From assembly GCA_019119305.1 (NCBI GenBank), contig DWXH01000023.1, forward strand, positions 1 through 64,000: DNA of 64,000 bases. Direction: 5' to 3'. Below, piece by piece: positions 7,900 through 62,464 of this stretch (its first letter is position 1; each line of letters starts with the position of its first letter). The position numbers and the translations under genes were made by a program. This DNA comes from Candidatus Alistipes merdigallinarum. GTDB taxonomy: Bacteria; Bacteroidota; Bacteroidia; Bacteroidales; Rikenellaceae. Below the pieces are notes generated by a model. The model was not told where the DNA came from, did no database searches, and worked only from the letters and a program-made list of their open reading frames with translations.

Positions 7900-7945
7900 G
7901 GATTTAATGTTAACTCATTAGACATATAGTCTTATCATGACCCCT

Positions 7946-10087: not shown

Positions 10088-10141
10088 CTTAATACTTCAG
10101 GTTTAGCAGTTTCTATTTTCATTCAACTTTTTATCGATGGA

Positions 10142-11977
10142 CTACTCCTCCTCAAACCGATAGTTCGCCCGACGCGACGGAGCCTGATCTCCATTGAGGA
10201 AAAACTCCTCGATGTCGCCCAGTTTCTGGATTCCGTCCGCCCAGTGGAAATCGAAAGCCAATTTTCCGGAACCGAAATAGGAGCGAGGGACGCGCACCAT
10301 CATCTCATTACCCTCATACCGGAACGCAACTCCTTTGGAGCCGCTCCACGACTCTCCATCGTAGGTTTTAACGGTCGAGGTCCGGTCGTTCTTAAACTCG
10401 GCATTGACCAACAGGTCGTAACCTTCCCAACCCGTCTCATGACTCTTGTCCGCATCGATAAACAACAGCATCCAATAGGGATCGGTATGAGGTGTCAGTG
10501 CTTCAGCCGTCTTCACATAGAAGTAGACATAATCATCATCGCGGGCCACCTTCGACTCGACAATGTCGTTCCGTCCGGTCTCGTTGATATAGGGCCCAGC
10601 CGCGAAGTTACCCGGACTGTTCCGATGGGTCACATCGCCGACATGATCGTAGTAGCTCTTCTTCACCCAACGCCACTGATCGAAATCGCCTTCCATGTCG
10701 ATCGTAACGGGTGCACCCACCGGCTCGGGACGCTCCACACCTTTGTATTTGCGGACATTCGCCACCAGTTGATAGTAATAGTTGTCGGAGTGTCCCCCTT
10801 TCATCGGCTCGATGTCGCGACTATACTCCTGATTGTACTGATCGATAAAATAGCCTTCACCCATGCGTACTTCGCGTCCGCCCTTTCCGCACTTGGCTCC
10901 GGGAAAAAAGTCCCACTTTTTCATCTCCTCTTCGTAATCCTGATTCGTACGGGTCATCTGACCGGCCGTCCACTCGTTCCATCCGGTCACAAAGACAAAC
11001 TCCGGATCGACCTCCAAGGCTCTTTGCCACTGTTGATCGAAATAGAGCCCCCGATCGGTCACGGGCGTCACATCGTACTCGTTTCTTTCGGGTTCGACAC
11101 CATCCTTAAAACTGCGGCCGATATTCGAAAGCGGATGTTGGGCTACGGCTACCGGAACATATTCGGGACGATCGGGAGACTCGTGCCAGCCCACCGACTG
11201 CGGATAGTGGTCGACCCACGGCCACTCATCATAACCGTTGTCGTACCACTTCAGCGTCGTCCAGGCCCAGCTCTGACGGATCGTAAAGAAGTCTGTTATC
11301 TCCTTCGGGAAGCGCACATCGTCCATCAGCTGCCGGTCACCGATGATGTGCTGCCCGAACATCAACAACGGTTTTCCTTTCCACCGGAACCATAAATCCG
11401 CATACAACCCCTTGCTGTAAATCTCATCCCAAAGCTGCATGACCGAATTCTGACTTGCCAGACATGCAATCTGCGGCGTCTTTTCCCCTTCGGCCCGCAT
11501 CCGACGAAATACGTCTGCGATAAAGACAAACACATCCTTATAAATCACATCGTTCGTATTATCCAAAATGATGACATCCACTCCCGCATCGGCCAACTGA
11601 CGGGCATGCCGGCGGATTATCCATTCGTCCTTCATGATATAGTATCCCGCTTCGGGTTCACCCCAATAGTGCGTTCCGCCGCCCCAACGGGGATTGACCG
11701 GGTCGGCTGCCAAAATTTCAGTTACGTTGTAGGGACCGTCTTTCGTTCCGTTATTGTTATGCGTCACGAAATAGAACATTCCGACAAACCGGTCCCCTTT
11801 TCTCGGACCACATTCGGCATATCCGGGAAGGGCACGCCCCAAAGCATCGGTCGCAACCCAAGTATCCGACTGCAAATCCCTATACAACGAATCGTTCTGT
11901 ACTCCCGACTGGGCCGACAGCATTGTCGTCCCTAAAATACAACATCCGGTAATAAAATTTCTTCTTATCGACATCAT
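10142..11977 (-). CDS. GH99/GH71-like glycoside hydrolase with C-terminal CBM9-like domain
   Basis: IIRRHARQLADAGVDVIILDNTND, WFRWKGKPLLMFGQ, WNEWTAGQ motifs; C-terminal DDDYVYFYVKTAEAL...MLLFIDADKS. Start moved from the 12067 ORF start to MMSIRRNF, because the longer N-terminus runs through a terminator hairpin. Confidence 0.8.
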   Translation of the reverse strand: MMSIRRNFITGCCILGTTMLSAQSGVQNDSLYRDLQSDTWVATDALGRALPGYAECGPRKGDRFVGMFYFVTHNNNGTKDGPYNVTEILAADPVNPRWGGGTHYWGEPEAGYYIMKDEWIIRRHARQLADAGVDVIILDNTNDVIYKDVFVFIADVFRRMRAEGEKTPQIACLASQNSVMQLWDEIYSKGLYADLWFRWKGKPLLMFGQHIIGDRQLMDDVRFPKEITDFFTIRQSWAWTTLKWYDNGYDEWPWVDHYPQSVGWHESPDRPEYVPVAVAQHPLSNIGRSFKDGVEPERNEYDVTPVTDRGLYFDQQWQRALEVDPEFVFVTGWNEWTAGQMTRTNQDYEEEMKKWDFFPGAKCGKGGREVRMGEGYFIDQYNQEYSRDIEPMKGGHSDNYYYQLVANVRKYKGVERPEPVGAPVTIDMEGDFDQWRWVKKSYYDHVGDVTHRNSPGNFAAGPYINETGRNDIVESKVARDDDYVYFYVKTAEALTPHTDPYWMLLFIDADKSHETGWEGYDLLVNAEFKNDRTSTVKTYDGESWSGSKGVAFRYEGNEMMVRVPRSYFGSGKLAFDFHWADGIQKLGDIEEFFLNGDQAPSRRANYRFEEE

Positions 11978-11998
11978 ATTATTCTTCGTTTTGATTAG

Positions 11999-12030
11999 AA
12001 AAAACCCCGTCTGAAATCCAAACGGGGCTA
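11999..12030 (-). terminator. Rho-independent terminator between the DUF5722-like gene and the GH99-like gene
   Basis: Minus strand: CCCCGT-TTGGATTTCAG-ACGGGG followed by TTTTTT. Confidence 0.75.
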
Positions 12031-12066
12031 TTGCAATTATGTGGGAGATTTCCGTACCCCGAACCA

Positions 12067-14196
12067 CTATTTTTTATCAGGGATCTCGATCGGACCTTTA
12101 TAAAGAATCTGATCCCAATCATCGATTCCGATAATCTCTTTGGCAAATTCGAAAACTTCATCCTCCCGATCGGTATCGAACGCCTGGAAAACAAACCATG
12201 CAGGTTTACGTCCCGACGGATCCTCCTCGTCATCCGGGAAACGACGGACTCCGATGCGCAAGCCTCCCTCACCGCGTTGGTCAAACCAGCCGTGCATCTG
12301 GTAAGCATCGATTCCGTCGCATGCCTTGAGTTTTTTCATCGCATAGGCCATTCCGGCAGCCTGTTCGAGCAGAGCCTGTTCAGAGTAATCTTTCGAATTG
12401 GGATTTTGCTCCGACAGATAGAGCGTACGTTTTTCTTTCCCTTGATACAACGCTCTGGGGTGTTTGATCCAAGCATCGAGCACCTCCAGATTCTTGAACG
12501 TAATCAACGGCGTATTGTAATCGAACGTTGCCTCCGTATCGAGCCATGCCTTCGGTTCGAAAAGCGACTGAGGATAGGGGTGATGTGCCACGCCCCATTT
12601 GAAATCGCCTTCAGCCTCGGTATAATCGAGCAACAGCTCCAGCAACTGGGCGGATGGATAGCAATATTCATTGTGGCGCGACTGCCAGTAATGGGTCAGC
12701 GTAATCAACACTTCGGCGTTCGGATTGTATTTCCGAGCGGTGTAATAGAGCAGACGCATCGATTTGACATAAATATCCATGAACCGAAGAGCCGTCTTGA
12801 TTCCGGCATTGGTCCACACCCAACCGGCATCCACCTCGTTGTGGGCGATCCAATGATGAACCCTTCCGTATTTCTTGTCCGGACGGCTGTACCTCGACGC
12901 CAGAAAATCGATCGCCGCAGCATACAGATTCAACGACTCGAGCGTCGTCATGTTGGGCATCGTGTAGATACCTGCCGGATCGAAATCGGGATGCTCGAAA
13001 AGACGTCCCGCCTCTTTATCGGCAAATGCACGTTCCGGAGCCACCAAAATAATCGCCGAAACGATCATGTTGCGTTGGGCTACGAATTGCAATGTCTTGT
13101 CGAAACCTTCGATCGTCTTGGCATCGGCATAATAGGTCTTACCGTTATATTCGAACGGAATCGAATTCTCCGAAGGGGTCAGCCGCATGAATCCCAGCCA
13201 CATATTGATCGTAATGCTGGTTGCCTGAAGGCTGTCCGCATCATACGAGTAGGGGCTGTTGTGGAAACCGCCGATTCCCTTCTTGGTGGTCACGACCTCA
13301 TGAGGCAGATCATACATAGCCTTAACCTCATCGGCATAGTGGCCGTGCGAACAGATCAGGAACCCTTTCTGCGATTTCTGAGCCAATACCCAACGGGAGT
13401 ACAGCCGATCATACTTTTGTCCGTCGATTTCGGCATAACGGTCAAACGTCATTTTAAACTTGGTCGGTTTTTCGACCTTCTGCTCTGTAATGAAATCCAG
13501 ATCCGTAAGCTCCCCGAACATGGGCACTTCACACAAATAGACATCTCCGGCCATCCCTTTGATGTTACCGGATACCTCTATTGCATCGTCCGTCACCTTG
13601 ACATCCGCCACCTCACACGGATAATCCTTTTTCAGATAGATATCGACGTCACGATTCAGTCGGGCTTCGCGCTTTTCGGTCTCGATCTTTTTCTGAGCCT
13701 GTTCCAACTCCTTATCCGTGTAGGCACGCAAACGAGGATTCTTGATGCGTATCGTGGTCGGTTTGGCGGCGTTGGGAGCAATCAGCAAGCTCAAAAAGTC
13801 ATTCGCCCCCGTCATTTTATCCAACTTTTCCGACACATCGACCGAAAAGGTACTCCAACCTTCGGCAATCGGCATACGGATCATATTCTCCTCGATACGC
13901 GAGTGGTCGTTATTGACCATCACGACCATAAATTCCATGCCGGATGCACAGAAATAGTCAAAACTCAGTACAGCAATGTCATCGGACAGCTCGCCGCTTT
14001 TCAACGGAGCGAACTCGATGATCGCATTTCCGGGAGCGGTTGTCGCCTCATAAACCCCTTGTTCCACCTCTTTTAAGGTGAAACCTTTACCCTCTTTGGG
14101 TACGACAGAAAGTTGCACGGAATTTTGAGCCTGGACACTCGTCGCCAACAACAAAAGTCCGGCGAGCCAAAGACTCATCAGATTTTTTTTCTTCAT
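12067..14196 (-). CDS. DUF5722-like secreted protein (putative glycosidase)
   Basis: Signal peptide; RVHHWIAHNEVDAGWVWTNAG, EVLITLTHYW, FKWGVAHHPYPQSLFEPK, LYLSEQNPNSKD: TIM-barrel-like pattern recognised as the DUF5722 family. Confidence 0.75.
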   Translation of the reverse strand: MKKKNLMSLWLAGLLLLATSVQAQNSVQLSVVPKEGKGFTLKEVEQGVYEATTAPGNAIIEFAPLKSGELSDDIAVLSFDYFCASGMEFMVVMVNNDHSRIEENMIRMPIAEGWSTFSVDVSEKLDKMTGANDFLSLLIAPNAAKPTTIRIKNPRLRAYTDKELEQAQKKIETEKREARLNRDVDIYLKKDYPCEVADVKVTDDAIEVSGNIKGMAGDVYLCEVPMFGELTDLDFITEQKVEKPTKFKMTFDRYAEIDGQKYDRLYSRWVLAQKSQKGFLICSHGHYADEVKAMYDLPHEVVTTKKGIGGFHNSPYSYDADSLQATSITINMWLGFMRLTPSENSIPFEYNGKTYYADAKTIEGFDKTLQFVAQRNMIVSAIILVAPERAFADKEAGRLFEHPDFDPAGIYTMPNMTTLESLNLYAAAIDFLASRYSRPDKKYGRVHHWIAHNEVDAGWVWTNAGIKTALRFMDIYVKSMRLLYYTARKYNPNAEVLITLTHYWQSRHNEYCYPSAQLLELLLDYTEAEGDFKWGVAHHPYPQSLFEPKAWLDTEATFDYNTPLITFKNLEVLDAWIKHPRALYQGKEKRTLYLSEQNPNSKDYSEQALLEQAAGMAYAMKKLKACDGIDAYQMHGWFDQRGEGGLRIGVRRFPDDEEDPSGRKPAWFVFQAFDTDREDEVFEFAKEIIGIDDWDQILYKGPIEIPDKK

Positions 14197-14410: not shown

Positions 14411-17347
14411 ATGAATAGAAATACTACATTTCTTTACATATTTTTAATTTTTATTTTTTTGACCAATATTTCCTTTTCGCGACCAACCGAATCCCCGCGC
14501 AATTCAGAAAAGCCCATTGTATCAGCAAATGATTTGGATATATTCGTAAAAGAGAACCCTTATTCCAGAGACTCCCTTTTACGGGCCCACTTTACCTCCA
14601 TTGCCGGTCAATATCAGGAACGGCTATGGTTCCATACCGACAAACCCTATTACGGAGTAGGCGACACCGTCTGGTTCAGAGGTTACCTGATCGATGCTTC
14701 GATGCTGATACCAAACGCCATGTCCAATTATGTATATGTGGATTTGTTCGACCGTCGGAGAAGATTGGTTAAATCGAAAAAAATCAAACGGGACAGTATC
14801 GGATTTGCCAACAATATCATATTGCCGGACACACTCTCAGCAGGAGAATATACCCTGAGGGCCTATACCGGATGGATGCTGAATTTCGATCCGAAAAATT
14901 TCTTTCAACTCAATTTCACGGTCGGCAATCTCTATTCGGGAGTCAACAGCAACATTACATATACGGACAAACACATGATTATCGAGCTGTCGGACAAGAC
15001 CTCCAAACCATACAGCAACAAAAAGACCACATATAAAATCTTCTCTAAAGGCGGAACCCTATTGTCTAAAGGGAAAATGAAAACCACCGCAACGACGGGG
15101 GCCCTGTTCATACCGCTTCCCAACAAATCGTCACGCGATGGAAGTTATGTAGAAACCAATGTCGATATGGGATACCGGATCTATAACCGCACATTCTTCA
15201 TAGATCCGCCCGAATACGATTTCGACATCCAGTTCTTGCCGGAGGGAGGCGATCTCGTTCCGGGCTCTCCACAACGGATCGCATTCAAGGCCGTACGTTC
15301 AGACGGCTATCCGGTTTTAGTGAAGGGGGAAATCGTAAATGCTGCGGGCCAAACCGTCACATCGTTCCAAAGCGAGCACGACGGTATGGGGACATTCATG
15401 CTCACTCCCCAAGCCGGAGAATCGTATCAAGCCCATACAACATGCAATCTCGAGCACAATGGGAATCCCGAGTTAACGAAAGACTCTGTGTATGCAGACA
15501 GTCTGTTCGATGCCTCGATGTTCGATATAAAAGTCAAAACATCTTATTTGCCGACTGTAAATGACCAGGCATGTGCATTGACCGTCTCTCGGCAGGGTGA
15601 TCTCATTCATTATCGGTTTTTGGGCAGAATTCCCGAGATGAGTACACTCATAGGCCATACACGGAATCTTTATCTTTTCTCTCGATCGATGCCATCCGAT
15701 GGGTCTTCAGAGGGTTCGATCCATACCGACTCTCTACCCGAAGGAATTCTCCATCTGATGTTGGTCGATTCGTTGGGGCTACCGCTAACGGAGCGGTTGG
15801 TGTATGTTCCTCACCCGGAGTCACGTCCCCAATGGAGCGTTCGCCCCGATAAAGCCACCTACGGGAAAAGAGAAAAAGTAAAAATAGATCTTGAATTGGA
15901 CAAACCCGAATTTTTCTCCAATTATTATTCGGTAAGCATCACCGATCGCAGTACCATTTACTACGATTCATTGAGCGAAAATATAAACTCATATCTGTTG
16001 GTTACCTCCGATTTAAAAGGCTATATTCACAATCCGGGATACTATTTTCTCGATGACAGTCTGCCAAGAAAAGATGCACTCGACCTTGTAATGATGACAC
16101 ACGGATGGAGACGATTCGCCACAAATAGGGCTCCAGTTTATGAAGAAAAGAGAAATAACCGGAAAGACAATGAAAAATTCGACGCACGTCTTTCATATAC
16201 AGCATATACTGCATTGAAAGACTCGAACTCCCTGTTCAGCTACTTTCTGCCCTCTGCATTTTCGCCACAACATCGTGTCGAACAGAATCAATTCTTCACG
16301 GGAAAAGTAACAACCTTAATGTGGAATAAAGTGGCTAAAAATGTAAACGTCACGGCCATGACTCTCGACAAGGACAGTCTGATTTTCAAGACGGTTACGG
16401 ATAGTGTGGGACGATTCACGATCGATGGTTTCGATATCGCCGATACGACGCTTTTCCAATTTACATCACGAGGAGGAAAAAACGACAAAACCCCATATTA
16501 TGTCGAAGTGGACAAAATATATCCCCGACCTCTACATACGCCATTCTATCCCTATTCGAAAGGTGACATAAAATTGCCCTACGAGAAAAAACTCCAAGCC
16601 TATCTCAACTCCACAAACACAGATACCATCACAGGTTTTACACTCGACGAAGTGACCGTTACAGGACGAGATCCGTTCCTACCATTAAGATCGACCTACG
16701 GAAGAGTATACGACACAACATATATATCCAAACATAAATCATGGACCGTCTACCAATATCTGGCACGATTGGCCAATGTCGGACGATACGTCAGGGAACA
16801 ATTGTTCACCATTATTCTTCCTGGGGGGCGGGTAGAATTTCTTGCACAGGTTCGAGTCAACGATTCGATAATCGGCAGCCGTCAAATCAATTATTTGAAA
16901 GGCATCGACATGGAAGATGTGAAGTACGTGGGAGTCATTGTTCCCGAGGGAGTCGCCGGTGTACCACCCAGCCCCGGCAATGTAACGCATCCTTATTTAC
17001 AAAGTAAAATATATCCTTTCCGCATAGAAGTGATATTGAAAAAAGGAGCTATGATCACCCAGCCGGATTACACATTGTATGAATCTTTCGGATACGCAAA
17101 ACATGTAGAGTTCTACCATCAGAGATACGATCGTCCGTGGCGACTGAACAGCAAACATTTTGATCGTCGCTCGACACTATACTGGAACCCCTATCTGCCG
17201 GTATCAGAAGAGGGCAAGGCAACCATCGAATTTTATGCGGACGACAGCAACAATCCGCAATACGAGATCACGATTGAAGGAATTTCGCCAGCGGGAGTAC
17301 CTGTCTTCTATCGATCGGAAGTATCGAAAGAAGAGTTGAATAAGTGA
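14411..17347 (+). CDS. Large MG2-like / plug-like surface protein (paralog 1)
   Basis: QERLWFHTDKPYYGVGDTVWFRGYLIDA (MG2-like), YDFDIQFLPEGGDLVPG, DLVMMTHGWRRF, FTLDEVTVTGRDPF, C-terminal TLYWNPYLPVSEEGKATIEFYADDSNNPQYEITIEGISPAGVPVFYRSEV. Shares these blocks with the ORFs at 55355 and 58105. Confidence 0.85.
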   Translation: MNRNTTFLYIFLIFIFLTNISFSRPTESPRNSEKPIVSANDLDIFVKENPYSRDSLLRAHFTSIAGQYQERLWFHTDKPYYGVGDTVWFRGYLIDASMLIPNAMSNYVYVDLFDRRRRLVKSKKIKRDSIGFANNIILPDTLSAGEYTLRAYTGWMLNFDPKNFFQLNFTVGNLYSGVNSNITYTDKHMIIELSDKTSKPYSNKKTTYKIFSKGGTLLSKGKMKTTATTGALFIPLPNKSSRDGSYVETNVDMGYRIYNRTFFIDPPEYDFDIQFLPEGGDLVPGSPQRIAFKAVRSDGYPVLVKGEIVNAAGQTVTSFQSEHDGMGTFMLTPQAGESYQAHTTCNLEHNGNPELTKDSVYADSLFDASMFDIKVKTSYLPTVNDQACALTVSRQGDLIHYRFLGRIPEMSTLIGHTRNLYLFSRSMPSDGSSEGSIHTDSLPEGILHLMLVDSLGLPLTERLVYVPHPESRPQWSVRPDKATYGKREKVKIDLELDKPEFFSNYYSVSITDRSTIYYDSLSENINSYLLVTSDLKGYIHNPGYYFLDDSLPRKDALDLVMMTHGWRRFATNRAPVYEEKRNNRKDNEKFDARLSYTAYTALKDSNSLFSYFLPSAFSPQHRVEQNQFFTGKVTTLMWNKVAKNVNVTAMTLDKDSLIFKTVTDSVGRFTIDGFDIADTTLFQFTSRGGKNDKTPYYVEVDKIYPRPLHTPFYPYSKGDIKLPYEKKLQAYLNSTNTDTITGFTLDEVTVTGRDPFLPLRSTYGRVYDTTYISKHKSWTVYQYLARLANVGRYVREQLFTIILPGGRVEFLAQVRVNDSIIGSRQINYLKGIDMEDVKYVGVIVPEGVAGVPPSPGNVTHPYLQSKIYPFRIEVILKKGAMITQPDYTLYESFGYAKHVEFYHQRYDRPWRLNSKHFDRRSTLYWNPYLPVSEEGKATIEFYADDSNNPQYEITIEGISPAGVPVFYRSEVSKEELNK

Positions 17348-17412
17348 CACCCAGATATTTAACACAACATAAACCATCTATCATATCGATCCACATTAAA
17401 AACAATCATGTC

Positions 17413-18837
17413 ATGAAAACTTTCTCTGCTTTTTTTATCATCATCGTTTCGACAATGTGGCTTTGCATTTCTTGTTCCAAAGATGGTGAAGACCCTGTCG
17501 ACCGAAACTCGCTTACTCCGATTCTCAAAGTTATTCCGCTAAACGATCAACTCGTAGCCGAAATCGACAACAACGAAACCGAAGGTGAACGTACTATCTG
17601 GCTGTATAACTATGGAGTTCCTGATCTCGACTATTCGAATATCCAGCTTTACCTGACGCTCGACGAAGGGGCTACTATGTATACACCTTACGACAAAAAT
17701 CCAGTCACATTGGACTACACTCTAAAACCAGAATATCCCAATCTAGTTATTACGGCATATATGAACGGAGAGTATATCTATTATCGTGTAGTGATACAAT
17801 CTGTTCAAGCCATAACGAAAATAGAAGCTACAGCTAGTGGAGTTACCCAAACATACATCCCTTCAGATGCCCCTTTATCGAGTAGCAACCGCTATTTCGG
17901 TTTTAAATTTACCGAAAAACAGGTGGATTTATCCAAAACCCACCTAAAGTTCGAACTCGCACCGCTTGCCTCCATGACATCGACCGATACGATCGTAGAC
18001 CTTACCTATCCGATCGAACTGCCGATCAAGACTCCTTTAGGTAAAGAATTCATCTCCATCAACGCATCGACTCTATACCATAAACCCAATTATTTACCGA
18101 GCCATTGGACCCATTGCGATGAATTAGGCACAACGGTTCCTTTATTCCATGCCTCCGAGTTAAGCAGCACAAAATGCAATGCGTATTTGGCCGTCGCATG
18201 GAACGACATCGTCATATATCGGCCGACTCCTTCGACACCTTATTGGACCGGCTCCCAATTATTCTCCGAATTTTACCAAAATAATTTATGGTATTCCTAT
18301 AAGATAACACATCTTTTGAAAATATCTTCTTCGTTTTGTTTTGTAGCCAATGAAATAGAACGTAAGTATGTAATAGTAAGTTCCGACAATGCATTTGAAG
18401 GTCAACCTGCGTTCTACCAAGATCGGAACGGTAAAAGCAGCACGGGAATTATCCAAAAAAACGGTGATAGTTTTACCGTCGATGGAGTATTGCTAAGCAA
18501 AGCCATTCAAGGTAAATACATTCTGCGGCAAAACAGTATCTGGCAACAAGTTCCGGATGATGGCAAACCCCATGGATGGAACGTGATTGCAGCAAATGCA
18601 GAAAACGATATTTTCCTATTTTCATGTGAAAGTTCGGATGAATATCCCGGTCTGACTTTGGCCCAACTACGCGATGTATTATCCGAGTTAAGATGTATCC
18701 ATGCACTGATTACCGAAGACGGTGAAATGCTCGGTATGTATACCGACACTGGAAACTTAATCCGAACAGCTACTGCAGACACGGATTCAGATCCACCCTT
18801 TTACGTAGGTATTGCCGTCGGTGATGATTCCTATTAA
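17413..18837 (+). CDS. Hypothetical lipoprotein
   Basis: MKTFSAFFIIIVSTMWLCISCSKDGED lipobox; beta-rich body with LTPILKVIPLNDQLVAEID. ATG at 17413 preferred to the upstream start. Confidence 0.7.
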   Translation: MKTFSAFFIIIVSTMWLCISCSKDGEDPVDRNSLTPILKVIPLNDQLVAEIDNNETEGERTIWLYNYGVPDLDYSNIQLYLTLDEGATMYTPYDKNPVTLDYTLKPEYPNLVITAYMNGEYIYYRVVIQSVQAITKIEATASGVTQTYIPSDAPLSSSNRYFGFKFTEKQVDLSKTHLKFELAPLASMTSTDTIVDLTYPIELPIKTPLGKEFISINASTLYHKPNYLPSHWTHCDELGTTVPLFHASELSSTKCNAYLAVAWNDIVIYRPTPSTPYWTGSQLFSEFYQNNLWYSYKITHLLKISSSFCFVANEIERKYVIVSSDNAFEGQPAFYQDRNGKSSTGIIQKNGDSFTVDGVLLSKAIQGKYILRQNSIWQQVPDDGKPHGWNVIAANAENDIFLFSCESSDEYPGLTLAQLRDVLSELRCIHALITEDGEMLGMYTDTGNLIRTATADTDSDPPFYVGIAVGDDSY

Positions 18838-18987
18838 CGAATCATAAATAATAGTTGTATCTTTGCATCCGGAAAATGCCAATAGCCGTTTTGTGGTATT
18901 TTCCGGATGTTTGCCGTTATTTCAAGGTATTCGCGGAAATGATTTTCGCGTATATTTTTGCAGACGACACAAATCGAAAAAACACCC

Positions 18988-21471
18988 ATGGATAAAGAGA
19001 AAGGGGAGATTACATACAAACGCCTGTCCGAACTGAAAACGTCGGATGAGGGAGTCATCACTAAAGTATTCGGACACGGATCGTTCCGCAACCGAATTAC
19101 GGAGATGGGATTCATTCGGGGCAAGGTGGTCAAAGTCATCAAAAATGCTCCGCTGTCCGACCCCATCGAATACGAAATCATCGGATACCGAATCGCCCTA
19201 CGAAAAAGCGAAGCCGAACTGATCGAAGTATCCGTTCCGGCCTATATCGAAACCCATCCATTGACCGATGACGCGACGTTCCGGGACGAATCGGTCAATC
19301 GTTTCGTCCACGAAAGCGGACGGATCATCAACGTCGCCTTGGTCGGAAATCCCAACTGCGGCAAAACCTCCCTGTTCAATGTCGCTTCCGGGTCACACGA
19401 ACGGGTGGGAAACTATAGCGGCGTAACGGTCGATGCCAAACAGGCAACCTTTAGTCAGGACGGATATACATTCAACATCTGCGATCTGCCAGGAACCTAT
19501 TCGATAACGGAATACACCCCCGAAGAGCTGTACGTCCGCAGCCACATTCTCAACGACATGCCCGATGTGGTCGTCAATGTATTGGACGCCTCGAACCTCG
19601 AGCGAAACCTTTTTCTGACCACCCAGCTGATTGACATGGACCTGAAAGTCGTCATCGCGCTCAACATGTTCGACGAGACAAAAAAACAGGGCATCGCATT
19701 GGATTATGAAACATTGGGCCGCATGATCGGAATTCCGATCGTTCCCACCATAGCGTCAAAGAACGAAGGCATTGCCGAACTTTTCCGAACGGTCATCGCT
19801 GTTTTTGAAGACAACGAGCCCACCGTCCGACACATACACATCAACTACGGCCAGGACATTGAAAAGAGCATACGGTCGGTTCAGAAATACCTGTGGAAAA
19901 ATTCGGACATCGCCGCCCGTTATTCTACACGTTATTTGGCAATCAAGCTGCTATGCAATGACCACAATATTGCTAAACTGGTAGAACATGCCGGCAATTA
20001 TCCGGAAATCGAAAGCACGGCCTCTCGGGAACGGACAAAACTCGAAAGCCTGCACGGCGATCGGGTCGAAAACCTCATAACCGATGCCAAATACGGATTC
20101 ATAACCGGAGCCCTCGAAGAGACCTGCCGTAGGCCGGTCGCACAAAAGACTCGGAAAGACGACCGGATCGACCGAATCATGACCCACAAAATTTGGGGAA
20201 TGCCCATCTTTTTGCTGCTGATGTGGATCACATTCCAGGTCACGTTCACCGTCGGGGCTCTTCCTGCCGAATGGATCGAATCGGGGGTCGGATGGTTGGG
20301 CGAAACGATCGGCACCCACATGCAGGACGGTTCACTGAAAGAGCTGTTAGTCAATGGAATCATCAGTGGGGTAGGCGGCGTCATCGTCTTTTTGCCGAAC
20401 ATCCTGATCCTCTTCTTTTTCATTTCGTTGATGGAGGATACGGGATATATGGCCCGGGCGGCGTTTATCATGGACAAACTGATGCACAAAATCGGCCTGC
20501 ACGGGAAATCGTTCATTCCGCTGCTGATGGGGTTCGGATGCAACGTTCCGGCCATTATGGCTACCCGGACCCTCGAAAGCCGCAAAGACCGGGTGCTCAC
20601 GATGCTTATCGTACCGTTCATGTCGTGCAGCGCACGGCTACCCGTATACGTATTGTTGATCTCCGCTTTCTTCCCGAAAGGGCAGGGGCTGGTCCTTTTC
20701 TCCATCTACCTGATCGGTATTGCCGTTGCGGTTCTGTCTTCACTTTTATTCAAAAAGGTACTCTTCTCCAAAGAAGAAGCACCCTTCGTCATGGAACTTC
20801 CGCCATATCGAATCCCGACGGCCCGCAACGTGGTATTGCACATGTGGAGCAAAGGTTCGCAATACCTCCGGAAAATGGGTACGATCATTTTAGCGGCCTC
20901 GATCATCATCTGGGCATTGAGCTACTACCCCCGCAACATGCACAATTCGGAAAATTATAAGGCTCTGAAAAGCGAGATCTCCGCTTCGACGACTCTATCC
21001 CGGCAAGATAAAGATGAGAAGATCCACGAGCTGAACAACCGGATGCACGCCGAACAACAGGAGCAATCCTACATCGGACGTTTCGGGCACTTCATCGAAC
21101 CGATCATTCGTCCGTTGGGATTCGACTGGCAAATCGGTGTCAGCCTGACCAGCGGGCTGGCTGCCAAAGAGATCGTCGTGAGCACGATGGCCGTATTGAG
21201 CAACAGCGGAGACGATGAAAACGCCCTGCCGGAAAATCTGAAACAGCAAGTCTACACCCAAGGAAAGCATGCCGGAGAACCGGTGTACACTCCACTTGTA
21301 GCCTATTCGTTGATGCTGTTCATTCTGTTATACGTACCGTGTTTTGCGACTATTGCAGCGATTCGTCGCGAGGCAGGATCGAAATGGGCGCTCTTCTCCG
21401 TAATTTATTCGACCGCATGTGCCTGGGTGGCATCATTTATGGTCTACCAAATAGGCAGCCTCTTGCTGTAA
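18988..21471 (+). CDS. feoB: Ferrous iron transporter FeoA-FeoB fusion
   Basis: N-terminal FeoA-like domain (SELKTSDEGVITKVFGHGSFRNRITEMGFIRGKVVKV); G domain NPNCGKTSLFN, DLPGTYSI; membrane region GFGCNVPAIMATRTLE. Confidence 0.96.
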   Translation: MDKEKGEITYKRLSELKTSDEGVITKVFGHGSFRNRITEMGFIRGKVVKVIKNAPLSDPIEYEIIGYRIALRKSEAELIEVSVPAYIETHPLTDDATFRDESVNRFVHESGRIINVALVGNPNCGKTSLFNVASGSHERVGNYSGVTVDAKQATFSQDGYTFNICDLPGTYSITEYTPEELYVRSHILNDMPDVVVNVLDASNLERNLFLTTQLIDMDLKVVIALNMFDETKKQGIALDYETLGRMIGIPIVPTIASKNEGIAELFRTVIAVFEDNEPTVRHIHINYGQDIEKSIRSVQKYLWKNSDIAARYSTRYLAIKLLCNDHNIAKLVEHAGNYPEIESTASRERTKLESLHGDRVENLITDAKYGFITGALEETCRRPVAQKTRKDDRIDRIMTHKIWGMPIFLLLMWITFQVTFTVGALPAEWIESGVGWLGETIGTHMQDGSLKELLVNGIISGVGGVIVFLPNILILFFFISLMEDTGYMARAAFIMDKLMHKIGLHGKSFIPLLMGFGCNVPAIMATRTLESRKDRVLTMLIVPFMSCSARLPVYVLLISAFFPKGQGLVLFSIYLIGIAVAVLSSLLFKKVLFSKEEAPFVMELPPYRIPTARNVVLHMWSKGSQYLRKMGTIILAASIIIWALSYYPRNMHNSENYKALKSEISASTTLSRQDKDEKIHELNNRMHAEQQEQSYIGRFGHFIEPIIRPLGFDWQIGVSLTSGLAAKEIVVSTMAVLSNSGDDENALPENLKQQVYTQGKHAGEPVYTPLVAYSLMLFILLYVPCFATIAAIRREAGSKWALFSVIYSTACAWVASFMVYQIGSLLL

Positions 21472-55286: not shown

Positions 55287-55354
55287 TGATAAGGGAAAAA
55301 GGGAAAGAATATCCATTCCTATTGTTCTAATTGATAATTATAAAGGGTAAACAG

Positions 55355-58054
55355 ATGCAGACACGGTACATTATTCTGACCTTACTTCTTTTGCTCTGCT
55401 TTAGGTTGAGCATCTCTTCGGGTTACGGACAAACGGCAAAGACAGATCACGGCATCGACAGCATTGCGCTGTATTTCGAAGGGCTCCGGAACCAGCAGCA
55501 GGAGAAGCTGTGGCTGCACCTGAACCAACCCTACTATGCCGCCGGAGATACAATCTGGTTCCGGGCATACCTGACCAATGCCATGACACACCGGCGAGAT
55601 ACCCTCTCAAACTTTGTATATGTCGATCTGGTCGACCAACGGGGAAGTTTTATCCTCTCGAAGAAAATTAAACGGGACTCCCTCGGGTTTGCCAACGGAA
55701 TACCCCTCTCCGATACCCTGCCCACCGGTGACTATACCCTCCGGGCATATACCGGATGGATGCTCAACTTCGACTCCTCGTTTTACTACCAGCACAACCT
55801 CAAGATCGGCAGTGTCCGGGTCAAAGAGATGCACACCGAGGTCACTTATCTTACCGGACGGGCCATCGTCCGATTCATGGATGATCGGGGGAACCCGTTT
55901 CAAGGGGTGGAGGCACGCTGTATCCTCTACGACAGAACAGGCAAAAAAGTATCGGGATTCAAACAAGAGTCCAGTACGACGGGTGCCATATTCGTGGACT
56001 TCGAGGATGACTCATTACGTGTTGGGGAATACATGGAGGCAGAGTTCGAGGATCAGGGATTCAGATACCGGGAACGGGTCTACTTCGAACCGGTAAAGCG
56101 GACCTACACCGTACAGTTCCTGCCCGAAGGAGGGGAGATGCTCTCGGGAGTACTTCGCCGTATAGCGTTCAAGAGCGAGGGGTCGGACGGATATCCTATG
56201 GATATTGAAGGATGTATACTGAACAGTTCGGGAGGTACGGTAACCTCCTTCCGCAGCGAACACGACGGTATGGGGTCGTTCTTCATGCAGGGAACAACGG
56301 GTGAACAGTACCGGGCAGTCTGTACGTCGGAAGATGGAGAGCAGAAGAGTTTCCCGCTGCCCGAGGTAAAAGAGCAGGGGAGTGCTCTGAGTATCTTCCA
56401 GACACAGGGTGGTATCCGTTACCGGATAGACGGAACATTTCCGGAGGGAGGATTCTTAGTGGGGCATCAGCGGGGAAGGTGCTGTTTTGTAGTGTCCCTC
56501 GAAGAGTCCCGTACGACAGGCAAGATCTGTACGGATTCCATAGGGAGCGGGATTCTGCATCTGTTGTTGACGGACCATACGGGACGCCGGTTGAGCGAGC
56601 GGCTCGTCTTTGTCGAGGGGCAGGAGCTGACCCGAGTATCGGTCGCGGCGGACAAGCCTGCCTACGGAAAAAGGGAGCGGGTGCGCATAGACCTGGACAT
56701 ACAGGACAAAAAGGGAATACCAATAGAGGCCGACCTGTCGGTCAGTGTGACCAACCGGAAGGTCATCAGCTACGACTCATTAGGCGGAAACATAAAAAAT
56801 TACCTGCTACTGACCTCCGACCTGAAGGGGTATATCCACAATCCGGGGTACTATTTCGAACAGGGTGGGGACTCGATAGCACGCCGCTATCATCTGGATT
56901 TAGTCATGATGACACACGGCTGGAGACGCTTCCCCTCAGACAACCTTTTCCGACCTGCGCCATTCTCCCCAAAACACTTCTTCGAACGGGGACAATATAT
57001 TTCAGGACAAGTTATCAGTACAGTCGGACTATCGGCAAAAAATGCCCAAGTCGATGCCATAGCACTTACCGGAGACAATGTATTGGGAATGACTATCACC
57101 GATTCTTCTGGATATTTTATACTTGACGGCTTGGATTATAAAGGTCCTACATTATTTATGATCACAGCAAAAACCGCACGAGGGAAAGGAAAGACAATTC
57201 CATTTATTGAATTTGATACGCTTTATCCACGACCTGAGGTAAAACAAAAAAAATTATACAATTCGATCGATTCATCTGAAGATTCATCCATCATCAACAG
57301 TTATGTCGATCAACGCAAGAGAAATTATGAACAGTCTCATTTTTTTAATGGATATGATTTGGATGAAATAGTTGTCGAAGCAACAAATCTTCGGAAACCC
57401 CAGACTTCGCCGATGGGAAATTTGTATGATACAGCCGATTTGGCTCCATATAAAAAAGTACCCTTATATATGTATTTATCGACTTTACCCGGTATTACCA
57501 CCGGAACTACAGGAGACGAAGAGAATATCCGGTGTTTCAAATTAAAAAAAATAGATGGTCTCGGTTTTACTCCGGCTCAATTAAGAATAGACAATAGAAT
57601 AGTTTCCAATATTAATGAAGTCAGGTCTTATAATGTTGACGATGTCGAGTATCTTAATATTGTCAAAACAACAGGAGGAAAAGATGGAGATGCGGGAATC
57701 AATATGTTAGACTATCCCTATCGGATAGAAATCTATTTGAAAGAAGATAGAAATACAAAAAAGAATTATATGACATATAGAACTTTGGGATATTCAGAGA
57801 AGATGGAGTTCTACTCGCCGATATACGATACGCCGGAACGGGCGGACAATCCCCATCCGGACAACCGAACCACCCTGTACTGGAATCCCTACGTACAAAC
57901 CGACACGGCCGGTAAAAGTTTTGTGGAGTTCTATTCCGATGACCGCGAAGATGCAGAACTCGAAATCACGATTGAAGGGGTTACCGATGAAGGGGTGCCG
58001 GTCTTTCATCGGTCCGGGGTTATTGCAAACGGGGATAAGGCCAACAATCCATAG
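55355..58054 (+). CDS. Large MG2-like / plug-like surface protein (paralog 2)
   Basis: Signal peptide MQTRYIILTLLLLLCFRLSISSGYGQ; QEKLWLHLNQPYYAAGDTIWFRAYLTNA; DLVMMTHGWRRFPSDNLFRPAPF; plug-like QLRIDNRIVSNINEVRSYNVDDVEYLNIVK; TLYWNPYVQTDTAGKSFVEFYSDD. Confidence 0.87.
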   Translation: MQTRYIILTLLLLLCFRLSISSGYGQTAKTDHGIDSIALYFEGLRNQQQEKLWLHLNQPYYAAGDTIWFRAYLTNAMTHRRDTLSNFVYVDLVDQRGSFILSKKIKRDSLGFANGIPLSDTLPTGDYTLRAYTGWMLNFDSSFYYQHNLKIGSVRVKEMHTEVTYLTGRAIVRFMDDRGNPFQGVEARCILYDRTGKKVSGFKQESSTTGAIFVDFEDDSLRVGEYMEAEFEDQGFRYRERVYFEPVKRTYTVQFLPEGGEMLSGVLRRIAFKSEGSDGYPMDIEGCILNSSGGTVTSFRSEHDGMGSFFMQGTTGEQYRAVCTSEDGEQKSFPLPEVKEQGSALSIFQTQGGIRYRIDGTFPEGGFLVGHQRGRCCFVVSLEESRTTGKICTDSIGSGILHLLLTDHTGRRLSERLVFVEGQELTRVSVAADKPAYGKRERVRIDLDIQDKKGIPIEADLSVSVTNRKVISYDSLGGNIKNYLLLTSDLKGYIHNPGYYFEQGGDSIARRYHLDLVMMTHGWRRFPSDNLFRPAPFSPKHFFERGQYISGQVISTVGLSAKNAQVDAIALTGDNVLGMTITDSSGYFILDGLDYKGPTLFMITAKTARGKGKTIPFIEFDTLYPRPEVKQKKLYNSIDSSEDSSIINSYVDQRKRNYEQSHFFNGYDLDEIVVEATNLRKPQTSPMGNLYDTADLAPYKKVPLYMYLSTLPGITTGTTGDEENIRCFKLKKIDGLGFTPAQLRIDNRIVSNINEVRSYNVDDVEYLNIVKTTGGKDGDAGINMLDYPYRIEIYLKEDRNTKKNYMTYRTLGYSEKMEFYSPIYDTPERADNPHPDNRTTLYWNPYVQTDTAGKSFVEFYSDDREDAELEITIEGVTDEGVPVFHRSGVIANGDKANNP

Positions 58055-58104
58055 GTAAAGTAAAATATCGACCGTTTTAATCGATAACCATAAAAGATAA
58101 ACAA

Positions 58105-60768
58105 ATGCAGACACGGTACATTATTCTGTCCTTACTTCTTTTGCTCTGCTTTAAGTTGAGCATCTCTTCGGGTTACGGACAAACGGCAAAAACAAATCAC
58201 GGCATCGACAGCGTTGCATTGTATTTTGAAGGGCTCCGAAACCAGCAACAGGAGAAGCTGTGGATGCACCTGAACCAACCCTACTATGCCGCTGGCGATA
58301 CAATCTGGTTCCGGGCATACCTGACCGATGCCATGACCCATCGGCGAGATACCCTCTCCAATTTCATCTATGTCGACCTGTTCGACCGGGCAAAACGGTT
58401 GGTAGCATCCCGAAAAATTAAACGGGACTCTCTCGGGTTTGCTAACTGCCTCCCGTTGCCCGATACCCTCGCTTCCGGCGAATACACCCTCCGGGCATAT
58501 ACCGGCTGGATGCTCAACTTCGACCCCGAGGGTTTCTTCCAAAAAAACATCTCTATCGGACAAGAACTTTCAAAAGTCAACCACTCCGTCGTTTATACTG
58601 ATAAACGGATGATCGTCCGTTTCTCCGACCTGCGAGGACGGCCTCTCGCAAAAAAAGAGGTTCTGCTCGAACTCTACGACAAGGACGGAAACCATCTCTC
58701 TGAGGGGTGGCAAACATCCTCTTCCACCGGGGCCATATTTATTCCGATACCTGCTGACTCCATCATTAAAGGGGCTTACGCCGATATTCGCTTTTCGATC
58801 TCGGAGGATTCGGTATTCCGCCGTACGATCTTTGTCGAACCACCGGCCAAAGAGACGTTCGACATCCAGTTCCTCCCGGAGGGTGGGGAACTCATCGCCG
58901 GTATTCCCCAGCGCGTCGCTTTCAAGGCGGTCCGCTCCAACGGCGATCCGGCAGAGGTACACGGCTTTCTGCTGAACAATCGTAACGACACCGTAGCCCG
59001 ATTCCACAGCGAACACAACGGTATGGGAAGTTTTGTGCTATCGGCCCAATCCGGAGAGCAGTACCGTGCCGAAACCTTCTGCGATACCCTTGCCGTATCC
59101 TCCTCTTTGCCGACGGTAAAGGAGCACTCCTGTGCCCTTCAGGTGGTCCGCAGAAATCAGGATATCCGATATCGGATATTGGGAGAGCTTCCTCAAGGGG
59201 CTATTCTCGTCGGACACATGCGGGGGATATGCAACATCCTGACTCCTATCGATCCGAAACAAAGTGCCGGAATCATCAAAACCGACTCCCTGCAGGAGGG
59301 AATCCTGCATCTGTTGCTGGTCGACAACTCCGGACATCCGAGAACCGAACGGCTGATCTATATCCACAAACCCGGACAAGCCCCTCTCGTCTCTGCCCTT
59401 GCCGACAAACCCGAATATGCAGCACGAGAGAGAGTGAAGGTCGATCTCTCGCTGTCCCAAGACGGTAAACCGCTCTCCGGGTGCTTCTCAGTCAGTATAA
59501 CTGATGCCCATGCCGTCAAAGCGGACTCCCTCGAGGAGAACATCCGCTCCTACCTCCTGCTCTCGTCCGACCTCAAAGGGTATATTCATGATCCCCAGTA
59601 CTATTTCCTCGACGACTCCCCTCAAAGACTCTATCATCTGGATTTGGTCATGATGACGCACGGATGGAGACGGTTCCCGACCGATAACCTCTTCCGGCCA
59701 GCTCCATTCGCCCCGAAATTCTTCCTCGAACACGGACAGTTCTTCTCCGGACAGGTCAACAATATGGTGGGCAAAGGGGTGAAGGAGGCTACCTTGACGG
59801 CATTTGCCGTACGGGGGGAAGGAACGAACGACAAGGCTTTTACGACTACCACGGACAGTGCGGGACACTTTCTGTTCGAGGGCCTCGACTTTCAGGATAC
59901 AACCGTATTCATGATCCCCTTCTACAACAAAAGGGGAAGGATTCCCTACGACATACAGTTCGACAAATCCTACTACCGCCCGAGACTATCCCCGATAGCT
60001 CCCTTCAAAAAGGAGAATCAGCAACTCGACCAAGCGGATGAGACCATATTGCAGATGTATAAAAACGAATCTTGGGGTTCTCTCCGGGAGTACTCGATGG
60101 AGGCGTTTACCGTACATGCAAAGGACCCTGATGCCCCGGCTGTACGGATCGAACAGAAAATCCACAACGATACCGCTAAATTCAATGAATTCAATACACT
60201 TTCATTAGAATCATATGTGCGAAACTTTCCGGGTATGATTTTAACAGACGATGGGTGGTGTTTAGAAATGGATTTAGGATACAGTGTTCCGCTTCAATTC
60301 AGATTAAATGATGAGATTATCATGAGTATGGCCCCGTTAAGTTTATATACAGTTGGTGACCTTGAATATATCCGAACTGATCTCATGCGCTGGCTTACTC
60401 CCCCAGAACTTCCGTATTTACCAATTCGCACTAGTGAAAACTATCCCTGCCGCTTTGAGGTTTATGTAAAAGAGGATGCCCATGGGGCACGACGGTTTGG
60501 GTTGTACAAGACGGTGGGGTACATACCAGGACCCGAGTTTTACCATCCGGTGTACGACACGCCCGAAAAACGGGAAAACAAAACACCGGATCGCAGAACA
60601 ACACTCTATTGGGAACCCTATCTACAGGTCGGCCCCGACGGGAAAGGCTGTCTTGAATTTTATACCAACGACAACAAAAAATCCGATCTCGAGATCACAA
60701 TAGAAGGAATTACAGTTGATGGGATCCCGGTCTTTCACCGGTCGACATTATCCGAAAAGAAACAATAA
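58105..60768 (+). CDS. Large MG2-like / plug-like surface protein (paralog 3)
   Basis: Near-identical signal peptide and N-terminus to paralog 2; DLVMMTHGWRRFPTDNLFRPAPFAPKFFLEHGQFFSGQV; TLYWEPYLQVGPDGKGCLEFYTNDNKKSDLEITIEGITVDGIPVFHRS. Confidence 0.87.
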   Translation: MQTRYIILSLLLLLCFKLSISSGYGQTAKTNHGIDSVALYFEGLRNQQQEKLWMHLNQPYYAAGDTIWFRAYLTDAMTHRRDTLSNFIYVDLFDRAKRLVASRKIKRDSLGFANCLPLPDTLASGEYTLRAYTGWMLNFDPEGFFQKNISIGQELSKVNHSVVYTDKRMIVRFSDLRGRPLAKKEVLLELYDKDGNHLSEGWQTSSSTGAIFIPIPADSIIKGAYADIRFSISEDSVFRRTIFVEPPAKETFDIQFLPEGGELIAGIPQRVAFKAVRSNGDPAEVHGFLLNNRNDTVARFHSEHNGMGSFVLSAQSGEQYRAETFCDTLAVSSSLPTVKEHSCALQVVRRNQDIRYRILGELPQGAILVGHMRGICNILTPIDPKQSAGIIKTDSLQEGILHLLLVDNSGHPRTERLIYIHKPGQAPLVSALADKPEYAARERVKVDLSLSQDGKPLSGCFSVSITDAHAVKADSLEENIRSYLLLSSDLKGYIHDPQYYFLDDSPQRLYHLDLVMMTHGWRRFPTDNLFRPAPFAPKFFLEHGQFFSGQVNNMVGKGVKEATLTAFAVRGEGTNDKAFTTTTDSAGHFLFEGLDFQDTTVFMIPFYNKRGRIPYDIQFDKSYYRPRLSPIAPFKKENQQLDQADETILQMYKNESWGSLREYSMEAFTVHAKDPDAPAVRIEQKIHNDTAKFNEFNTLSLESYVRNFPGMILTDDGWCLEMDLGYSVPLQFRLNDEIIMSMAPLSLYTVGDLEYIRTDLMRWLTPPELPYLPIRTSENYPCRFEVYVKEDAHGARRFGLYKTVGYIPGPEFYHPVYDTPEKRENKTPDRRTTLYWEPYLQVGPDGKGCLEFYTNDNKKSDLEITIEGITVDGIPVFHRSTLSEKKQ

Positions 60769-60971: not shown

Positions 60972-62339
60972 TCACTCACACCAACACCTCATTTGTGTGA
61001 AATCGAATGTAATTCGCTTCATCTTTTTCATTGCAGAAAATCCCATGAACCCATTACTTAATGGATATGGATCGATCTGGGCCATTTCATTCCCCGCTCC
61101 AGCCAACACCTCAACTCCGGTTAGATCACAACGTTTATCACCGATCTCCGTCCGCAGCGGACCGACTGCAAAACATTCATATTCGAGTAATCGGCCTGGC
61201 AACAACATGCTCCGGGTCACTGTATCGTCGGATACTCGAGAGGACAACCCATTCTCATTCTGTCGATAGTACGAATTATAAAGAACCAAATCCCCCTTGC
61301 CGCCCATGCCGGTATCCATATAGCTAACTATGTCAAGACTGTTTAATTTATATTTCAGATATAAATTATTGTTGATCAGACAAAAGTCACTTCCTCCTAC
61401 TTTTTCGTCCGATACACTCATCGAAAACGTAACCGTCCGGTTTTCTATGTCGAATATGATTCTTTCGAATCGTTTCATCACGGGAATTCCGAATACAGCC
61501 TGTTCCATCTTTTTTTCAGCAGTCTCCCGAACCTCTTCATAACGCGATACGACATCCGGATCATCCGAATGGGACTCGATCACCTCCTCAAGCCTGTTTT
61601 TCAATACGTATACCGGCATATTATAGATCACCATTCCCTCGATACTCAACGAATCGACTACGGCACATAACAAATCTAAATCATTCTTGGTCGCTTGTAA
61701 CGGATCCGCCGAAACATATCTCACTCCGATGCGATCGGCCATCTCCTCTGTCAATACCGAAACCTGTGCTCCCGTATCGAACAGGGTAGGCAACGGACAA
61801 CCGTTCCACTCCATTTCACAGCTCAAATCGTCTTCTCCGATTAATTGAGCGGAGGCTTCCGAACCAGACAAAACAATACGCATTTCCGGGAATTGAACCA
61901 AACCGGCCATTCTGTTCCGTATCGACCGAATATGTCCGAACATCAATGAATCCAAGCCTTCCGTTTCCAACAGCCCGTCACAAACATCAATTCCTTTCTC
62001 ATAATCTCCCGTATCTTCATACGCACCCATCAACAAATAGTTGTACCCGAATTTCGCATTTGAATCCAACACTTTGTCATACTGATCAAGCAATTTGTTC
62101 CAATTATTGACAGCAGCCCGGGAATCGTTAAAATAGGTATGAACGAGGGCCGTTCCACACAATCGGATAAAACCATTCAAGCTGTCACTGTTTTTATCCA
62201 GAAACGTTCTGAGCGCAAACCAATCCTGCGTATTCATCATTTCTGTTGCTCTTGCATCATATGTATTTTGACCGTATATATCATACGAACAGAAAATTAC
62301 TACCGATAACACGATAAATGTTGCCAATTTTCTTTTCAT
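60972..62339 (-). CDS. Secreted retropepsin/pepsin-like aspartic protease homolog with TPR-like N-terminal region
   Basis: Signal peptide from MKRKLATFIVLSVVIFCSYDIYGQ; two DTG motifs: PTLFDTGAQVSVLTEEMADRIG and VSYMDTGMGGKGDLVLYN. Confidence 0.8.
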   Translation of the reverse strand: MKRKLATFIVLSVVIFCSYDIYGQNTYDARATEMMNTQDWFALRTFLDKNSDSLNGFIRLCGTALVHTYFNDSRAAVNNWNKLLDQYDKVLDSNAKFGYNYLLMGAYEDTGDYEKGIDVCDGLLETEGLDSLMFGHIRSIRNRMAGLVQFPEMRIVLSGSEASAQLIGEDDLSCEMEWNGCPLPTLFDTGAQVSVLTEEMADRIGVRYVSADPLQATKNDLDLLCAVVDSLSIEGMVIYNMPVYVLKNRLEEVIESHSDDPDVVSRYEEVRETAEKKMEQAVFGIPVMKRFERIIFDIENRTVTFSMSVSDEKVGGSDFCLINNNLYLKYKLNSLDIVSYMDTGMGGKGDLVLYNSYYRQNENGLSSRVSDDTVTRSMLLPGRLLEYECFAVGPLRTEIGDKRCDLTGVEVLAGAGNEMAQIDPYPLSNGFMGFSAMKKMKRITFDFTQMRCWCE

Positions 62340-62430
62340 CACAGATCTTTTAGGAAAGAAATAAATTAGAAAATACAAGAGAAAATCAATGTTATAAACA
62401 AATTTACAAATAATTTTTACAACATGATGC

Positions 62431-62464
62431 AAAAAAAGGAGTTAAGTCTTTGACTTAACTCCTT
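62431..62464 (-). terminator. Rho-independent terminator of tRNA-Pro
   Basis: Minus strand AAGGAGTTAAGTC-AAA-GACTTAACTCCTT followed by a T run; perfect 13-bp stem with 3-nt loop. Confidence 0.85.

Follow-up and report, generated by a model that had tools for sequence, protein, structure and literature searches.

Bacteroidota macroglobulins that carry a TonB-receptor-type plug in the bait slot

Described macroglobulins and plug-bearing transporters

The alpha-2-macroglobulins (A2Ms), the complement proteins C3-C5, CD109, and the bacterial type I A2Ms (E. coli ECAM and Salmonella A2M) share a run of domains, MG2-MG6, in which a slot within MG6 is filled by other sequence. In C3, this slot carries the anaphylatoxin. 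In A2M, MG6 is interrupted by a linker and the bait region, and cleavage of the bait triggers a change in shape (PMC9352918). The type II A2M MagD of Pseudomonas aeruginosa is periplasmic and has no working thioester, but it keeps the fold of the thioester domain (TED) and an ordinary bait, and it is encoded in the mag operon. The SusC/RagA transporters, in turn, contain a CarboxypepD-regulatory-like domain, a Ton box, and a plug, followed by a barrel. Deletion or mutation of the Ton box of SusC Bt1763 results in a growth defect resembling that of a SusD deletion (PMC7782687).

The window analyzed here (the whole stretch of 64,000 nucleotides from Candidatus Alistipes merdigallinarum) encodes three proteins, A, B, and C, that can be compared with each of these systems. 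Like the A2M and complement proteins, they have MG2-MG6 and a filled MG6 slot; unlike them, they lack the thioester domain, CUB, MG7, MG8, and the receptor-binding domains, and the bait is replaced by a CarboxypepD_reg domain, a Ton-box-like motif, and a plug. Like MagD, they are A2Ms without a working thioester; however, they end at MG6, and no operon like mag was seen. Because TED itself is absent, they do not belong with the type II A2Ms, in which TED is kept and CXEQ is lost. With SusC and RagA they share the CarboxypepD-regulatory-like domain, Ton-box-like motif, and plug, but not the barrel. The family is therefore a barrel-less, thioester-less A2M variant, new within the superfamily, and neither a TonB receptor nor a type II A2M. 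Among the papers listed by a literature search, none describes an A2M chain with a plug in the bait slot, and the available part of a paper on the Bacteroidota BAM describes no subunit like A-C (PMC12611786). The combination of domains may already appear in public annotation under generic names.

The genes

The three genes of the window are as follows:

55355-58054, + strand: gene A, a TED-less macroglobulin with a plug, 899 aa from its ATG
58105-60768, + strand: gene B, the tandem paralogue of A, 887 aa
14411-17347, + strand: gene C, a further paralogue, 978 aa

All three ORFs are intact; for A, an upstream TTG at 55331 is an alternative start that would give 907 aa. A and B are 47% identical over their full length (E=6e-259, far beyond chance), and the three paralogues diverge chiefly in the plug and linker. 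An orthologue of C in genome G149 is 83% identical overall and 90% identical in the plug. Comparison of the two plugs gives a dN/dS of about 0.03, which indicates purifying selection, though as a guide only, because dS is near saturation. A fourth copy, which brings the total for the genome to four, lies outside the window (G000:C18:3230-5851; L003, L117) and has a canonical plug (Pfam Plug, 1.4e-9) and the Ton box LKEVVVHGKQ. NCBIfam holds no model for A-C, and a single-sequence search of the PDB with a family protein gave no match; a profile is needed.

The 5' ends of A and B (window 55324-55774 and 58074-58524) are 86% identical over the first 450 nt or so, after which identity falls to about 50%. 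Within the first 120 nt or so, identity is about 95%, and synonymous third positions are equal in 19 of 20 cases. This pattern suggests a gene-conversion tract between the tandem copies.

A macroglobulin chain reduced to MG2-MG6

Computation establishes A, B, and C as members of the A2M superfamily that have been cut back to MG2-MG6 preceded by a signal peptide. In A, the parts of this chain are:

55355-55429, + strand: signal peptide; AlphaFold helix at residues 2-21, likely signal-peptidase-I (SPI) cleavage between SGYG and Q (Q-rule, PMC5837995)
55496-55810, + strand: MG2, residues 48-152, 7 strands; Pfam MG2 at 3e-6, strand count, and C3 MG2 by profile
55811-56089, + strand: MG3, residues 153-245, 7 strands; strand count, with bMG3 detected in 3 of 48 members
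56102-56362, + strand: MG4, residues 250-336, about 7 strands; strand count, with MG4 detected in 3 of 48 members
56372-56617, + strand: MG5, residues 340-421, 7 strands; strand count, with A2M_BRD overlapping the region in relatives
56630-56755, + strand: first half of MG6, residues 426-467, 3 strands; strand count, with A2M_BRD ending here in relatives
57866-58024, + strand: second half of MG6, residues 840-890, 4 strands, followed by the stop; hhalign of the tail

MG1 seems to be missing. Pfam MG2 scores E 1.5e-6 to 3.7e-6 in A-C, just short of the curated cut-off, and is found in 47 of the 48 family members scanned; the family profile also matches C3 MG2 (E=7e-4). The AlphaFold model of A (pLDDT 84, pTM 0.79) was compared with known structures using Foldseek, and only complement/A2M proteins were present among the 50 matches listed: CD109 (E=1.1e-19), C3, C4, C5, TEP1, and the A2Ms of E. 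coli and Salmonella. The full-chain TM-scores are low because the arrangement of the domains differs; consequently, the matches signify homology of domains rather than of overall shape. Furthermore, the profile of the short family aligns with thioester-bearing A2Ms over residues 28-890 (prob 100, E=6e-128). The tail alone aligns with the A2M domain of the thioester-bearing relatives (hhalign, E 4.9e-21, prob 99.4), whereas a control region gives a prob of 3.9. From the strand order and this homology, the two halves of MG6 are predicted to pair across the insert.

A plug in the MG6 slot

Within the slot, the family has a helical segment with DLVMMTHGWRRF, then the CarboxypepD_reg domain and a further helix, and finally a Ton-box-like motif followed by the plug. 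The corresponding features are:

56756-56989, + strand: helical segment of A with DLVMMTHGWRRF, where the insert in the MG6 slot begins
56993-57214, + strand: carboxypeptidase-regulatory-like Ig domain of A; Pfam CarboxypepD_reg, E 0.0024
57359-57382, + strand: Ton-box-like motif of A, LDEIVVEA, better conserved than any other 6-column window of the insert
57416-57754, + strand: plug domain of TonB-receptor type in A; AlphaFold segment with pLDDT 81, Foldseek
16643-16666, + strand: Ton-box-like motif of C, LDEVTVTG

When the plug segment of A was folded separately and compared by Foldseek, TonB-dependent transporters alone appeared among the 50 matches listed. In addition, the family profile matches the plugs of SusC, RagA, Cir, and BtuB, the best being SusC (E=2.3e-13), and Pfam detects Plug in 28 of 48 members. 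In A-C, the core of the plug is degenerate by comparison with the fourth copy and several relatives, with loss of the usual K-G...G-x-R-G signature. A folded plug, rather than a flexible protease bait region, occupies the slot.

The chain continues for only about 95 residues beyond the plug, and the 22-strand beta-barrel is absent. Nearly all of the roughly 80 full-length homologues, which come from Bacteroidales, Sphingobacteriales, and Cytophagales, end at the same point, about 50 residues past the YWxP motif. A search of the whole genome with PF00207 at E<=1 gave no match, and no thioester domain with GCxEQ was found.

A preliminary description of this DNA had reported three ORFs of 887-978 aa with a common domain order, the third at 14.4 kb. 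All are present, and every motif that it quoted has been located in A-C. Its MG2-like fold is borne out by Pfam, by the profile match to C3 MG2, and by the strand count; its carboxypeptidase-regulatory-like segment agrees with Pfam CarboxypepD_reg (31 of 48 members, weak in A-C); and its plug-like fold and missing barrel are upheld by Foldseek and by the common end point. The structure prediction that it proposed, run for A, yielded both macroglobulin units and a plug fold. It missed, however, that the entire chain is an alpha-2-macroglobulin, as Foldseek reveals, and that the plug occupies the bait slot. The "repeated beta blocks" it described are real but are macroglobulin domains (the QFLPEGGE...HDGMGSF block of A is MG4), and the conserved tail, also real, is the second half of MG6.

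The Ton-box-like motif and cellular location

A putative Ton box, recognized as a sequence motif, lies upstream of the plug in A and C and in degraded form in B (MEAFTVHA). The family motif, LxEVxV, aligns with the Ton box of SusC Bt1763, DEVVVTG (PMC7782687). Of 149 windows across the insert region, the hexamer ranks first (2.67 bits); it is matched by 49 of 58 members and is better conserved than every window of the plug. Conservation is lowest in the linker that precedes it (1.39 bits). In the AlphaFold model of A, the surroundings of the motif (residues 661-680) are disordered, with a pLDDT of 43-49. The genome encodes five TonB C-terminal domains.

The type of signal peptide suggests that A-C are probably soluble in the periplasm. 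In Bacteroidetes, signal peptidase I cleaves after A, G, or S and before Q (PMC5837995). This rule fits 53 of 84 members, whose signal peptides look like SPI substrates, although a match to the Q-rule does not by itself prove a periplasmic location. A scan of the 84 members for a type II lipobox gave two regex matches, both inside signal-peptide cores, and a Pfam scan of 48 members detected no T9SS tail or C-terminal sorting domain. The conserved Ton box also favors the periplasm.

Long relatives and history of the family

In longer Bacteroidota relatives, some with a plug and some without, the same chain leads into a thioester domain; some relatives of the same order, 1464-1573 aa in length, extend beyond the conserved tail. 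Their Pfam order is MG2 - A2M_BRD - CarboxypepD_reg - Plug - A2M - TED_complement with GCFEQ, although not every protein shows every domain. Five of the plug-bearing proteins (L016, L023, L145-L147) have the same MG2-...-Plug-A2M order as A-C but continue into a TED with GCFEQ, which A-C do not. In the plug-less, thioester-bearing A2Ms (L019, L021, L025, and L144), a charged low-complexity linker fills the slot. Three of these (L019, L025, and L144) also have CarboxypepD_reg; consequently, this domain probably arrived with the A2M and not with the plug. To our knowledge, A2Ms outside Bacteroidota lack the plug.

A tree of the shared core, which was built without the plug and tail and gives no direction of change, needs one change for the presence or absence of the thioester domain and one for that of the plug. 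Several members (L028, L031, L014, L018, and L036) have long branches, and their places in the tree are therefore unsure. The simplest series is one in which a plug entered the bait slot of an ordinary A2M and the C-terminal half was then lost.

Of the 299 genomes sampled from the phylum, at least 44, belonging to 32 of 142 genera, have a strong match to the family profile; a few of the matches are long relatives, and the total is an undercount, since scoring was limited to three candidates in each genome. Within the genus, the number of match places varies from 0 to 7. Tandem arrays recur, with five copies in Pedobacter foliorum (L073).

The five plug-bearing proteins are themselves full A2Ms with the GCFEQ thioester motif, a textbook SusC Ton box (in L145, NLDEVVVVGYGT...LTGAV), and a plug in the bait slot; they are possibly a more striking version of the same idea. 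Broken copies are present in G152 and G160 (genus and family relatives), and contig-end copies are found in G149; these point to frequent duplication and loss in the family.

What the plug might do

The model we favor, tentatively and short of calling it probable, is one in which these proteins are periplasmic macroglobulins whose MG6 is moved by the action of TonB on the Ton box and plug. One of the cell's TonB proteins would engage the protein through its Ton box and pull on or remodel the plug. Both ends of the plug are tied into MG6, so the pull would pass to the macroglobulin chain, which would then change shape or release or capture a partner. The force from TonB would thus stand in for the protease cut of an ordinary A2M bait, in the same slot. 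That proton-motive force, acting through the plug, switches a complement-like periplasmic protein in place of proteolysis is a more doubtful proposition. The Ton box of B is degraded, and so not every copy need be driven by TonB. The lost plug signature of A-C and the lack of a dedicated partner gene beside the family also count against the model. We know of no earlier work that ties the A2M/complement fold to the TonB motor. If the model is correct, TonB powers something besides an outer-membrane barrel; if TonB binds, it gains a client that is not a transporter, and the evolution of A2Ms gains a force-triggered branch. The protease-sensing slot of A2M, the source of the anaphylatoxin in C3, is here taken by a module of a kind on which TonB is known to act, in a family that is widespread in Bacteroidota and often multicopy.

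The main rival, somewhat unlikely in our estimate, holds that the plug is static: a docking or packing domain in a protein that serves as a scaffold or binding protein in the periplasm without any action by TonB, the Ton box being kept for internal contacts. The Ton box of SusC is able to pack against the body of the plug (PMC7782687), and retention of the sequence in this family could likewise reflect packing on the plug instead of binding of TonB. The degenerate plug cores of A-C and the lack of a proper Ton box in B would also fit a static plug. However, the hexamer is conserved beyond any window of the plug, and it is modeled as disordered.

Less likely than either is a noncovalent trap or inhibitor of proteases, with the plug module as a cleavable bait. 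The proteins belong to the A2M superfamily, the insert occupies the bait slot, and MagD captures a protease without a thioester (PMC5764988). MagD, however, retains TED and the downstream domains, whereas this family stops at MG6, and the plug of C evolves slowly between orthologues, which sets it apart from a bait. The paralogues do differ most in the plug, as they would if it evolved fast in the manner of a bait, but the C orthologues do not, and this possibility was therefore rejected.

The preliminary description had favored a surface or soluble protein that captures or binds partners. Large secreted multi-domain chains with several diverged paralogues would suit such a role, but with no lipobox, no T9SS tail, and so many members fitting the SPI rule, a surface location is not supported. 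Furthermore, a Ton box is sensible only if it faces the periplasm, leaving capture at the surface weaker than action by TonB and, in our judgment, improbable. Finally, that these proteins are the decaying remains of either a full A2M or a TonB receptor, to which the broken copies in the sister genomes might point, is scarcely credible and already largely refuted by the shared end point of about 80 homologues from three orders, the purifying selection on the C plug, and the spread of the family or its long relatives through the phylum.

Gene neighborhood

Across 80 family loci, no dedicated partner gene was found, and the recurring neighbors are housekeeping genes. The stop codon of C is overlapped by a 497-aa lipoprotein-like gene (window 17344-18837) with CSKDGEDP after its signal peptide and a weak NAGPA match; it was rejected as a partner of C, since it is not kept beside the 83%-identical orthologue. 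FeoB, which occurs only near C (window 14411-21471) and at L046 (738-5972), is likely there by chance. Next to C on the minus strand (window 5587-14196) is a cluster of genes for a GH92 enzyme, a DUF5722 protein, and a protein that weakly matches GH99. Convergent with B (window 60972-62432, minus strand) is a gene whose secreted product has a retropepsin-like aspartyl protease domain (PF13650, 1.8e-9). At another locus (L043, 1495-8144), a family copy lies beside a small, Cys/Thr-rich peptide with a GG motif, which is flanked by two related-looking proteins of about 230 and 397 aa and by glycosyltransferase-like ORFs; this region looks like a modified-peptide cluster.
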